A DNA stretch of 64,000 nt from NCBI RefSeq assembly GCF_000169455.1, contig NZ_AAYC01000010.1, forward strand, positions 1 through 64,000, given 5' to 3'. A model generated the notes under the pieces. That model was not told where the DNA came from. It saw nothing but the letters and a program-made list of their open reading frames with translations, and did no database searches. Shown here one piece after another: positions 2,640 through 8,323 of the stretch (positions within the stretch are counted from its first letter, which is position 1; each line of letters starts with the position of its first letter). Source of the DNA: Roseobacter sp. SK209-2-6 (lineage in GTDB: Bacteria; Pseudomonadota; Alphaproteobacteria; Rhodobacterales; Rhodobacteraceae). A program made the translations under genes and the position numbers.

Positions 2640-3458
2640 ATGTCACAAAACGAAACAGGATTTCAGCTGGCCCTTGGTGAACGGCGCTTTGGGCGGGTGA
2701 ACTGGCTGGGGTTGCAGACATTGGCAGGTCGAGAAATCACCAGGTTTCTGGTCGTGTGGACCCAAACTTTGCTGGCGCCTTTGGTCACTGCGGCGCTGTT
2801 TTTGTTGATTTTCAACCTGGCCATAGGTCCGCGCCGGGGGGATGTCATGGGGGTTCCATTCCTGCAATTCCTTGCACCGGGCATCATGATGATGACGGTA
2901 ATCCAAAATGCTTTTGCCAATACCTCTTCTTCCCTTGTCATCTCCAAGGTGCAGGGCAACATCGTGGATACGTTGATGCCACCGCTTTCCGGGCTGGAGA
3001 TTCTGCTTGGCTATCTCGCGGGCGCAATGGTGCGTGGAGTGGTGATTGCTCTTGGTATTGCCTGCGGTTTGGCTGTGGTACTGGGGCTATTTCCCGCGCA
3101 CCCTGTGCTCGCCTTGCTTTTTGTCACGCTCGGAGCGGTTTTCCTGGGAGGGCTTGGTATCGTTGCCGGGGTCTTTGCAGAAAAATTTGACCAGATGGCG
3201 GCAATCACCAATTTCATTGTGACCCCTTTGGCCTTCCTTTCAGGGACTTTCTACTCTGTTGCGGCCCTGCCGCCGGTGCTGCGCAGCCTGTCGCAGGTCA
3301 ATCCGGTTTTCTATCTGATCGATGGGCTGCGATTTGCCATGATTGGAACTTCGGATGCACCAATTGGTCTGAGTATCGCGGTCTGCCTCCTGGCTTCCTG
3401 TTCGATCTGCGCATTGGCCTGGGCCATGCTGCAGCGGGGATATCGGTTGAAACCCTAA
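2640..3458 (+). CDS. ABC-2 type transporter permease
   Basis: This 272-residue protein has about six membrane segments and the ABC-2 permease pattern (F-L-Q-F-L-A-P-G-I-M-M near residues 78-88; P-L-A-F-L-S-G-T-F-Y-S near residue 200; P-V-F-Y-L-I-D-G-L-R). It resembles YadH/DrrB-type permeases that work with a separate ATPase to export a substrate or polymer. No ATPase gene lies beside it here, so the partner must be encoded elsewhere. The ATG at 2640 follows an A-rich stretch (GGAAAAAAC). Divergent from gcrA. Confidence 0.85.
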   Translation: MSQNETGFQLALGERRFGRVNWLGLQTLAGREITRFLVVWTQTLLAPLVTAALFLLIFNLAIGPRRGDVMGVPFLQFLAPGIMMMTVIQNAFANTSSSLVISKVQGNIVDTLMPPLSGLEILLGYLAGAMVRGVVIALGIACGLAVVLGLFPAHPVLALLFVTLGAVFLGGLGIVAGVFAEKFDQMAAITNFIVTPLAFLSGTFYSVAALPPVLRSLSQVNPVFYLIDGLRFAMIGTSDAPIGLSIAVCLLASCSICALAWAMLQRGYRLKP

Positions 3459-4900: not shown

Positions 4901-5830
4901 CTAGTTCCCGCTCTTGGCCCGCAACCGCCCCTCTCGCCAGGCCAGCAATGCCGCACCAGATAGGATGGTGGCTGCCCCGGCGATCGTGATGAGGTCAGGC
5001 TTTTTTGCAAAGCCAATAAAATCATAAAGCGTTGCAAAGATTAACGTGGCATAGCTGAATGGCGCTGCAAAAGAGGCATCCGCCCGGGCCATGCCATTGA
5101 TGAAACAGGCCTGTGCGCAGGCCATCAGGATCCCTAGTCCCGCCAAGGCCAGCCATTGGGTCGGGGTAGGGGCCTGCCAAACAGTGCTGGCAGCGATGCT
5201 GGCGATGATCAGCCCCAGCGCATTGTTGAACCAAAGAACCTGCAAAGGGCTTTCCTGCCCCGCCAGTTTCTTTATCAGTATCAGCTCCATCCCCATGACA
5301 AGTGCTGCCGCCAGAGCCAAGAGAGCGGCGGGCTGGAAACTGGAAGGCCCGGGACGAAGCAGTATCAAAGCCCCCAGGAGCGCGACAAAGGCCGCAAGCC
5401 AGCGCCAGGGGCCAACCCGCTCTCCGAGGAGAGGGATCGCCAGCAGCATTGCAAAAACCGGATTGAGAAAGGTGATCGCGGTGGCATCCGCCAGGGGAAT
5501 ATAGGCCACGGAGGCAAACATCAGGGTCACACCCAGCCAGCCAAAACTGGTGCGCCCCAGATGCAGCCTCCACTGTGGTTTTTGCAGTTTGAAACGCAGG
5601 ACAATCACCGCGCTGGAGATCGCAAGAAAGGCGAAACAGAAGCGGCCAAAGCTGATCTGCATCGGATGCAGCGGCGTACCCAGAGCCTCTGTGCCCAGGG
5701 CTTTGGCAAAAAGGGTGGTGGCGGCGATGAATACCGAGGCGGTGGTGATCAGGATGGCTGCCAGCGCCGGGTTTTGTTTTGTTTCGATCTGCATCTGGCC
5801 AGCTGTGCGGTGCCAATCCTTCTTTTGCAA
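4901..5830 (-). CDS. DMT family (EamA) transporter
   Basis: The 309-residue protein holds two EamA repeats, each of about five membrane segments (first about residues 24-155, second 165-300), with typical P-L-A-D-A-T-A-I-T-F-L-N-P-V-F and A-P-F-S-Y-A-T-L-I-F motifs. The family exports amino acids, metabolites or drugs across the inner membrane. The start may be the first Met or the internal Met at residue 13; the frame supports either. Substrate unknown. It runs in the same direction as the MFS gene but 123 bases upstream of that gene's start. Confidence 0.85.
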   Translation of the reverse strand: MQKKDWHRTAGQMQIETKQNPALAAILITTASVFIAATTLFAKALGTEALGTPLHPMQISFGRFCFAFLAISSAVIVLRFKLQKPQWRLHLGRTSFGWLGVTLMFASVAYIPLADATAITFLNPVFAMLLAIPLLGERVGPWRWLAAFVALLGALILLRPGPSSFQPAALLALAAALVMGMELILIKKLAGQESPLQVLWFNNALGLIIASIAASTVWQAPTPTQWLALAGLGILMACAQACFINGMARADASFAAPFSYATLIFATLYDFIGFAKKPDLITIAGAATILSGAALLAWREGRLRAKSGN

Positions 5831-6137
5831 GTCCTATCGCCTCGCCTACGGTTCTGCGTGGTCAGGTGCCACGCCGCACCTTGCATGGCAGGGGTGGCAA
5901 AATGTTTGCGCAATGGCTCCGAAAGGGGTTTCTTTTTGGCATTCGCTCCGATATGGAGCCTGCCTATGATCAAAGATGCACATATCCCTTTGCTGCGACG
6001 CCGACGCCGTTTGGCGTAATTTGGCCGTTTTGATCTCTTGTGCCTGTCCTGTGGTGCAAAAACACTCTCCCATTATTGACCCTTTGGCCCGGCTCATGCA
6101 CTGCTTTGGCCTCAACCCGTGAAAAAGGATGATCCTG
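5831..6137 (+). promoter_or_regulatory. argD-argF leader region
   Basis: This 307-base region precedes argD. It holds a short arginine-rich frame with its own ribosome site (5966-6019), a small stem-loop (ACGCC at 6004-6008 with GGCGT at 6013-6017) overlapping the end of that frame, three copies of TTTGGCC (near 6020, 6083 and 6104) and a C-rich, G-poor stretch at about 6036-6075. A TTGACC at 6077-6082 could be a -35 box but lacks a good -10. No classical U-tract terminator was found, so if attenuation operates it may be Rho-dependent or translational. Confidence 0.55.
5966..6019 (+). CDS. Putative arginine leader peptide upstream of argD
   Basis: A 17-codon frame encodes MIKDAHIPLLRRRRRLA, with five consecutive Arg codons (CGA CGC CGA CGC CGT at 5996-6010) just before the stop. 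A GGAG ribosome site lies at 5955-5958, seven bases before the ATG. The frame sits 118 bases upstream of argD, the first of two arginine biosynthesis genes. A run of codons for the pathway end-product in a short translated leader is the hallmark of amino-acid attenuation as in his, leu and trp leaders. Ribosome stalling at scarce Arg-tRNA would be the sensing step. This is inference; translation and the termination mechanism are unproven. Confidence 0.6.
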   Translation: MIKDAHIPLLRRRRRLA

Positions 6138-7319
6138 ATGATCCCCTCCGTATTGCCCACCTATAATCGCGCTCCATTGGAGTTCGTGAAAGGCGAAGGT
6201 TCCTGGCTGATTGAGGCGGATGGGCGACGTTTTCTGGATCTTGGTTCCGGGATTGCGGTGAATGCGCTGGGCCATGCCCACCCAAAGCTGGTTGAGGTTC
6301 TCAGCACCCAGGCGCAAAACCTTTGGCATGTCTCCAACCTCTATAAGATCCCGCAGCAGGAAAAGCTGGCGGATCTGCTGGTGGAGCATACCTTTGCCGA
6401 TACGGTCTTTTTCACCAATTCCGGCACAGAAGCCTGCGAGCTGGCGGTGAAGATGGCGCGCAAGTTTTTCTACGAGAAAGACCAGCCGGAGCGGGTGGAG
6501 ATTATCACCTTCGATGGCTCCTTCCATGGCCGCTCCTCGGCGGGGATCGCTGCTGCAGGCAGCGAGAAAATGACCCAGGGATTCGGTCCGCTTCTACCCG
6601 GATTTGTGCATCTCACCTTTGGCGATCTGGATGGGGTGACCAATGCGATCACCGATCAGACTGCGGCCATTCTGATTGAACCGGTGCAGGGCGAAGGCGG
6701 TATTCGCCCGGTGCCAGACGCGGAACTGAAGGCGCTGCGCCAAATCTGTGATGAGGCGGGCATCCTGCTGATCCTGGACGAAGTGCAATGCGGTGTGGGC
6801 CGGACCGGCAAGCTCTTTGCCCATGAATGGGCGGGCATCGCGCCTGACATCATGATGGTGGCCAAGGGCATCGGCGGCGGCTTCCCGCTGGGCGCTGTGC
6901 TGGCCACGGAGGAGGCCGCCTCTGGCATGACAGCCGGCACCCATGGTTCCACCTATGGCGGCAACCCCCTGGGCTGCGCCGTGGGCTGCGCCGTGGTAGA
7001 GGAAGTGACCGCCGACGGATTCCTTGAAGAGGTGAACCGCAAGGCGGGCCTGCTGCGGCAAAAACTTGAGGGGATCGTTGCTGATTATCCCGATGTTTTT
7101 GAAGAGGTCCGTGGATCTGGGTTGATGCTTGGCCTCAAATGCAAAGTCTCCAACATTGATGTTGTAAACGAAGGCTATGAAAAAGAGCTTATCACGGTTC
7201 CTGCCGCCGATAACGTTATCCGTCTGTTGCCACCTTTGAATCTTTCGGATGAAGACGTCGCTGAAGCCGCTTTGCGAATTGAGGCGACCGCTGGCGGTGT
7301 GCGTATCGGCAACGGCTGA
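6138..7319 (+). CDS. argD: Acetylornithine aminotransferase family protein
   Basis: A class III PLP-dependent aminotransferase of 393 residues, with F-T-N-S-G-T-E-A near residue 92, the cofactor Asp region I-L-D-E-V-Q-C-G-V-G-R-T-G and the Schiff-base Lys in M-V-A-K-G-I-G-G-G-F-P. It transfers an amino group from glutamate to N-acetylglutamate semialdehyde in arginine synthesis; ArgD enzymes can also serve lysine synthesis. An ATG at 6129 is in frame, but 6138 is chosen because it sits about 9 bases after AAAAAGGA. argF follows after 77 bases, supporting the arginine role. Probably controlled by the leader region before it. Confidence 0.93.
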   Translation: MIPSVLPTYNRAPLEFVKGEGSWLIEADGRRFLDLGSGIAVNALGHAHPKLVEVLSTQAQNLWHVSNLYKIPQQEKLADLLVEHTFADTVFFTNSGTEACELAVKMARKFFYEKDQPERVEIITFDGSFHGRSSAGIAAAGSEKMTQGFGPLLPGFVHLTFGDLDGVTNAITDQTAAILIEPVQGEGGIRPVPDAELKALRQICDEAGILLILDEVQCGVGRTGKLFAHEWAGIAPDIMMVAKGIGGGFPLGAVLATEEAASGMTAGTHGSTYGGNPLGCAVGCAVVEEVTADGFLEEVNRKAGLLRQKLEGIVADYPDVFEEVRGSGLMLGLKCKVSNIDVVNEGYEKELITVPAADNVIRLLPPLNLSDEDVAEAALRIEATAGGVRIGNG

Positions 7320-7396: not shown

Positions 7397-8323
7397 ATGA
7401 AGCACTTCCTAGACATCCACAAAACCGACCCTGCTGATCTGCGGGCCATCATCGATCAGGCCAGCGCCACCAAACAGGCCCGTCTGGGCCGGCCCAAAGC
7501 TGCGTTGGACGATGAGCTGCCGCTCAAGGACCGTATGGTGGCGCTCATCTTTGAAAAACCCTCGACCCGGACCCGCGTCTCCTTTGACGTTGGCGTGCGC
7601 CAAATGGGAGGCCAGACCATGGTTCTCTCGGGCAAGGACATGCAACTGGGCCATGGCGAAACCATCGCCGACACCGCCCGCGTGCTTAGCCGCTATGTGG
7701 ACATGATCATGATCCGCACCTTCGATGAGACCGTGCTGACCGAGATGGCGGAATATGCCGATGTGCCGGTGATCAACGGGCTCACCGACCGCACCCATCC
7801 CTGCCAAATCATGGCGGATGTCCTGACCTATGAAGAGCACCGCGGCCCGATCAAGGGCAAAAAGGTGGTCTGGGCCGGGGACGGCAACAATGTCTGCGCC
7901 TCATTCCTGCATGCGGCGGGCCAATTCGGTTTTGACCTCACCTTTACCGGTCCCGCGCAGCTGGACCCAGAGGAGGAGTTCATCGGCCTGGCCCGCAAAG
8001 CGGGTTCGAAGATCTCAATCGAGCGTGATGCCTTCAAGGCCGTCGAGGGTGCTGATCTGATCGTCGCCGATACCTGGGTTTCGATGCATGACAGCCAGTC
8101 CTCGAAAGAGCGCCGCCACAACATGCTGCGCCCCTATCAGGTCAATGATGAGCTGATGTCCCACGCCAAGTCGGATGCGCTGTTCATGCATTGCCTGCCA
8201 GCCCACCGGGAAGAAGAAGTGACCTCTTCTGTCATGGACGGGGCACAGTCGGTGATCTTTGATGAGGCCGAGAACCGGCTCCATGCCCAGAAAGCCGTCA
8301 TGCGCTGGTGCCTGGAAGGCTAG
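7397..8323 (+). CDS. argF: Ornithine carbamoyltransferase
   Basis: The 308-residue enzyme joins carbamoyl phosphate to ornithine to make citrulline. The carbamoyl-phosphate loop (K-P-S-T-R-T-R near residues 50-57), H-P-C-Q (near 134), the ornithine loop (D-T-W-V-S-M) and the catalytic H-C-L-P-A-H-R near residue 270 are all present. It forms an operon with argD upstream. A strong terminator lies 57 bases after the stop codon. Confidence 0.97.

Follow-up and report, generated by a model that had tools for sequence, protein, structure and literature searches.

The window analysed here, a stretch of 64,000 nucleotides from Roseobacter sp. SK209-2-6, carries on its plus strand argD (positions 6138–7319), encoding acetylornithine transaminase (NF002325, E = 1.5e-187, and TIGR00707, both above cut-off), followed by argF (7397–8323), encoding ornithine carbamoyltransferase (TIGR00658, E = 1.3e-112, above cut-off). 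The two genes adjoin each other in 80/80 close relatives, and these matches bear out a first-pass annotation of the DNA, which had placed an arginine-rich leader peptide upstream of argD–argF. With a divergent EamA-type transporter gene upstream (4901–5830, minus strand) and argD downstream, the leader is intergenic.

The leader open reading frame (ORF; 5966–6019, plus strand) has 17 sense codons (ATG ATC AAA GAT GCA CAT ATC CCT TTG CTG CGA CGC CGA CGC CGT TTG GCG, then TAA) and translates as MIKDAHIPLLRRRRRLA*; we recognize it by its conserved frame and arginine run and by a profile match. The run itself, CGA CGC CGA CGC CGT (5996–6010), is conserved and biased in its codons, and we presume that these are the sensor codons. 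The argD start at 6138, which best fits the relatives, lies 118 nt past the leader stop; the frame, its five Arg codons and its distance from argD are all confirmed in the sequence as originally read. The Shine-Dalgarno sequence of argD, AAAAAGGA, occupies 6122–6129 (plus strand). There is a second in-frame argD ATG at 6129, nine bases upstream; the relatives favour 6138.

Further upstream in the window, an ABC-2 permease (2640–3458) has the C-terminal tail QRGYRLKP, and an ORF with the tail RRGYRLK is found directly 5' of argD in several other alphaproteobacterial families (loci L184, L191, L193 and L217). To judge from these tails, the permease gene and argD may be former neighbours, the intervening genes having been inserted later.

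Conservation of the leader frame

We located argD in 101 Rhodobacteraceae genomes, one per genus, and read 90 loci, taking the family in the GTDB sense, which includes the Roseobacteraceae of NCBI taxonomy. Two further sets served for comparison: 80 named close relatives, and a class-level draw of 60 loci, 59 of them from outside Rhodobacteraceae. A leader was called where an ATG-initiated ORF of 7–26 codons held an Arg-Arg pair with CGA first and had its stop 60–180 nt before argD. Such a leader is present in 74/90 genera, in 80/80 close relatives and in 2/59 other-family loci, against means in dinucleotide shuffles of 1.0 (maximum 4), 1.35 and 0.55, respectively. Under a stricter rule, asking for at least four Arg in five, the counts are 54/90 (0.9 in shuffles) for the genera and 60/80 (0.4) for the close relatives. 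In GC-rich DNA, short ORFs with Arg codons arise often, and this one might in principle be a functionless product of chance; 74/90 against an expectation of 1.0 refutes that reading, to which we attach practically no weight. The observation of a leader ORF before argD, at more than chance frequency, is real. By the same rule the leader is absent from 16/90 genera, and it is therefore not essential for regulation everywhere.

What is kept is a reading frame. In a frame-blind test, the string CGACG was traced back to the closest ATG on its upstream side and the frame between the two was scored; the Arg run is in frame in 68/76 genera (p ~3e-24), although the distance from ATG to Arg run ranges from 3 to 24 codons across genera. 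This bears directly on the idea that the element acts only as RNA or DNA, for example as a structured CGACGCCGACGC element, and goes untranslated. The nucleotide string CGACGCCGACGC is indeed conserved in itself and pairs around the stop codon, but the preservation of frame through such changes of distance, together with leaders that have CGA CGA CGC or split runs and so retain Arg while losing the string, makes an untranslated element very improbable.

A profile of the whole leader matches its own genome with E = 2.5e-18 and finds a match in 12/12 same-genus genomes, with one copy per genome, upstream of argD; this single copy rules out a repeated element. Before argG, argJ and carA, no comparable leader was seen in eight genomes.

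Within the peptide, the Arg run is the sole conserved part: N-termini vary between genera and lengths range from 10 to 23 amino acids, as expected if codons rather than a peptide signal were being sensed. The leader is a short ORF in which codons for the pathway's product abound, and it is kept as a reading frame: two of the marks of a ribosome-mediated attenuator. It had been anticipated that the ATG and the Arg run, rather than the DNA alone, would be conserved in relatives, and that the loss of the short frame among them would speak against the leader. The frame proved to be conserved, and the claim stands; of the features proposed for comparison across Rhodobacteraceae, the ATG and the Arg run are kept, whereas a ribosome site at the GGAG in front of them is not supported.

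The string ACATAT(C), at 5979–5987 in the window, is common inside leaders, and in nine of them (L087, L133, L145, L146 and L156 among these) it lies out of the His-Ile frame, hinting at a constraint that may operate on the nucleotides.

Candidate promoters, predicted RNA structure and the spacer before argD

A logo over 61 leaders shows T77/T61 at −35/−34 and a C-rich stretch at −32/−31 relative to the leader ATG, then a (C)TA(T) box whose centre is about 11 nt upstream of that codon, with the −10-like box as a whole spanning 7–14 nt before it; C occupies position −1 in 82%. The trinucleotide CTA lies 13–15 nt before the ATG in 72/146 leaders; elsewhere within 40 nt it is nearly absent. On the strength of the logo and the CTA position, we predict a leader promoter in the window with TATGGA (5952–5957, plus strand) as its −10 box and a −35-like region at 5927–5936 on the same strand, which is weak in the window itself. 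The GGAG (5955–5958) that the first-pass annotation had taken for a ribosome site overlaps this box, and is thus likely to be untranscribed and to belong to a promoter rather than to a ribosome site. Shine-Dalgarno matches before the leader ATG show no excess over a spacer control, and we have given up the ribosome-site assignment on both counts. Because the −10-like box comes just before the ATG, the leader mRNA is probably leaderless, with its 5' end at that codon or no more than about 2 nt away, a form of mRNA that has been shown for trpL of S. meliloti (PMC10117765).

Closer to argD, a near-invariant TTGAC (6076–6080, plus strand) stands out by its conservation, either as the −35 of an argD-proximal promoter or as an RNA element. 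Of the 90 genera, 79 have it 48–70 nt before argD (1.75 expected from shuffles), with GGCAC or TGCAC at a constant distance behind it. In the window, this conserved TGCAC (6097–6101) sits in the loop of a hairpin, P4 (6086–6111, plus strand; GGCC..GGCC), the arms of which covary like an RNA hairpin in a register-free swap test (z −4.8); no fixed-register covariation around TTGAC beyond noise was detected. TTGAC is retained in 9/16 family loci without the leader, and in other alphaproteobacterial families (L183, L193, L212, L213 and L214) argD is preceded by a clear TTGAC-N17-GATACT/TATTCT promoter sequence, with no Arg leader. Together, these two observations suggest that TTGAC is an ancestral argD promoter, and the TTGAC/P4 element may be both promoter and RNA hairpin. 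If the promoter is active, part of argD transcription bypasses the leader, and transcripts could start downstream of 6019 as well as at the leader promoter.

A stronger version of this reading would have argD–argF driven mainly by a second promoter at TTGAC (6076–6101), leaving the leader transcript as a separate trans-acting RNA or peptide, as with peTrpL/rnTrpL in Sinorhizobium. Its merits are the promoter-like distance of TTGAC from argD, its spread across genera and across loci that lack the leader, and the promoter-like sequence at the same place in other families. Yet the −10 position reads GGCACC/TGCAC, the arms flanking the loop covary as those of an RNA hairpin, the TTGAC/P4 profile matches only at argD, and TTGAC-N16-GGCACC shows no enrichment over the reversed control in 101 genomes. 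As the presence of an Arg-codon leader would also go unexplained, we consider a dominant second promoter quite unlikely. The same absence of enrichment over the reversed pattern in the 101 genomes rules out TTGAC-N16-GGCACC as a generic promoter class. A sigma-54 site at GGCAC-N-GGGC was considered for its spacing and dropped, since the clade of the window itself has lost the GG.

Three further helices are predicted on the plus strand. P1 would join GATCAAA at the start of the leader ORF (5968–5974) to TTTGATC after its stop (6029–6035), and P3 is a hairpin, TTGTGCC..GGTGCAA (6038–6059). Both are present when 82 close relatives are folded together (RNAalifold), and both show compensatory changes: for P1, GATCAGT/ACTGATC in L150 and GATCGA/TCGATC in L160 are examples, and for P3 there are C-G/U-A exchanges in close relatives. 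Over 551 window pairs, the swap test gives P4 the strongest within-sequence complementarity, with P1 at −3.3 and P3 at about −3; for P1, the evidence is suggestive. In P2 (6000–6025), Arg codons at 6000–6008 pair with 6013–6017 and 6022–6025 around the stop codon; this helix belongs to the minimum-energy fold of the window and of most close relatives, and shows little covariation because its arm is nearly invariant. No family-wide consensus fold was found by the same kind of alignment folding, P1 being absent there, and P1–P3 should therefore be held as features of the clade.

Directly before TTGAC lies a G-poor, C-rich tract (6060–6075, plus strand), which by its base composition is, with the spacer, a candidate region for Rho loading. 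The C-rich, G-poor stretch originally noted after the leader is both real and general: across 117 loci, the last 30 nt before TTGAC contain 38.5% C and 15.4% G, and C minus G, at −0.002 upstream, rises to 0.117 in the spacer (Wilcoxon p ~2e-20). Such a composition fits Rho, without being proof of it. A consensus scan of the window found no hairpin with U-tract between leader and argD, in agreement with the initial reading, the post-P4 logo has no U-tract after P4, and the swap test returned no conserved antiterminator or long-range alternative pairing. Terminator scan, swap test and family-wide fold between them revealed no classical terminator/antiterminator, a reading we set aside. Sequestration of the argD start under the control of a stalled ribosome was also dropped, as masking a ribosome in folding models, whether over the Arg codons or at the leader stop, left the pairing of the spacer and the argD start unchanged.

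Codon choice and the proposed arginine sensor

The leaders used to count codons were selected on Arg and not on particular Arg codons, so that codon bias is not built into this count. Their runs comprise 265 CGA, 242 CGC, 18 CGT, 2 AGG and 1 CGG. CGA accounts for 50% of the leader run and for 7% of the Arg codons in argD of the same loci (p ~1e-110), whereas CGG falls from 22% in argD to 0.2% in the run; with AGR, which makes up 2.5% in argD, the comparison becomes 24% against 0.6%. CGA opens the run in 132/140 leaders, and CGA-CGC-CGA-CGC is present in 84/140. Runs span two to five codons, most often four; the two-codon version, seen in some genera, is usually CGA CGA.

Most bacteria decode CGU, CGC and CGA with a single tRNA(Arg)ICG and CGG with another tRNA (PMC3711424); CGA is decoded more slowly than CGU or CGC in the Salmonella his leader (PMC4046918). 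Nearly all codons of the run accordingly fall to one tRNA(Arg) species, with the slow one among them favoured, and the run looks adapted both to a single isoacceptor and to ready stalling. Since the Arg codons pair near the stop codon in P2, some of the nucleotide constraint may be structural, and part of the CGA-CGC pattern could come from this pairing rather than from decoding speed. The original argument, that the codons match the end product of the pathway encoded downstream, is supported.

Codon identity also weighs on a different kind of sensor, nascent-peptide arrest like that of SpeFL, in which the peptide, inside the ribosome tunnel, would sense ornithine or arginine, stall and tie argF to the supply of ornithine. 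SpeFL has a conserved HIRR core and acts through Rho (PMC6386406), ornithine is the substrate of ArgF, and HIRR occurs in a few leaders (L018, L029, L035, L154 and L170). Peptide arrest has no need, however, of the selection between CGA and CGG seen here; the non-Arg residues are unconserved, just 61/142 leaders having Ile, Leu or Thr after His; and lengths vary, with no counterpart of the conserved C-terminal region seen in these leaders. We rate such an arrest as distinctly improbable. As the residues next to HIRR vary, its occurrence in those five leaders is probably a coincidence.

Rhodobacteraceae are abundant in sea and soil and lack ArgR: a search with PF01316 gave 0/61 family genomes and was positive in 9/14 control genomes. 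A comparative study likewise reports that ArgR is kept in many groups of gammaproteobacteria, whereas other classes of Proteobacteria lack it (PMC5343134). To the question of how the family controls arginine synthesis, the Arg leader offers a direct, testable answer.

We propose that the leader is likely to be a ribosome-read arginine sensor for the argD–argF operon. Transcription from the promoter just upstream would begin at or near the leader ATG and yield a leaderless ORF of 10–18 codons, with two to five Arg codons, CGA first, read by the tRNA-Arg with anticodon ICG; CGA would be its slowest codon, as published for enteric bacteria. When charged Arg-tRNA is low, the ribosome would stall in the Arg run and keep the Arg codons and the surroundings of the stop codon unpaired, allowing argD–argF to be expressed; when arginine is ample, it would finish and be released, the leader would refold (P1/P2) and expression would fall. 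The sensor and its linkage to argD–argF are well supported; the output step we infer. It would most likely be premature termination in the C-rich, G-poor spacer by Rho, a route whose chances we put at a little under even. Control through mRNA stability or argD translation seems rather unlikely, if still worth taking seriously, and termination at the U-poor P4 hairpin more unlikely again. The first-pass interpretation as a whole is partly supported.

The full scheme, in which a family without ArgR would control arginine synthesis through a leaderless leader tuned by the CGA codons of one tRNA(Arg) (CGA-CGA at minimum), with Rho as the output and no intrinsic terminator, is offered tentatively, as a possibility that falls short of probable. 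The sensor, for its part, would bring arginine biosynthesis into the set of proteobacterial operons that leader peptides control. Natural selection at this regulatory site strongly favours CGA over its synonyms for Arg, which opens codon-specific stalling to tests in vivo.

Relation to known leader peptides

No Rfam family matches the leader region of the window, and we met no earlier description of an Arg leader before argD in Rfam or in the literature searched, where a mention in a supplementary list is possible. Among published systems, ORF34/SpeFL, the speF leader of Enterobacteria, comes closest: it is also a short ORF with consecutive Arg codons before a gene of ornithine metabolism; in Salmonella, these codons sense arginine and translation counters Rho termination (PMC6386406). 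SpeFL, however, serves a catabolic gene and has a 34-aa ORF with a Shine-Dalgarno start, a peptide core (DUF2618), a long 5' UTR and an RNase G step, whereas the argD leader has 10–18 aa, is probably leaderless, conserves only its Arg run and precedes a biosynthetic operon in another bacterial class. The SpeFL/DUF2618 core HIRRT..HIM was not found in the argD leaders, in which HIRR is confined to a few and no other peptide conservation is seen.

In the same order, Rhodobacterales, the cysS uORFC-8-2 likewise has tandem relevant codons in a short uORF and a proposed ribosome-mediated attenuation (PMC8632094). It carries Cys codons, precedes a tRNA synthetase gene and has an intrinsic terminator with a U-run; the argD leader differs in its arginine codons, its biosynthetic genes and its want of a U-tract terminator, and does not belong to that family. 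The classical his, trp, leu and thr attenuators share with it a run of end-product codons just before a biosynthetic operon, but operate through an intrinsic terminator and a competing antiterminator, neither of which was found at argD. Finally, trpL/rnTrpL of Sinorhizobium meliloti (PMC10117765), a tryptophan attenuator that also yields a trans-acting RNA and peptide, resembles the argD leader in being an alphaproteobacterial amino-acid leader peptide; its leaderless mRNA starts at the AUG, as is predicted for the argD leader.
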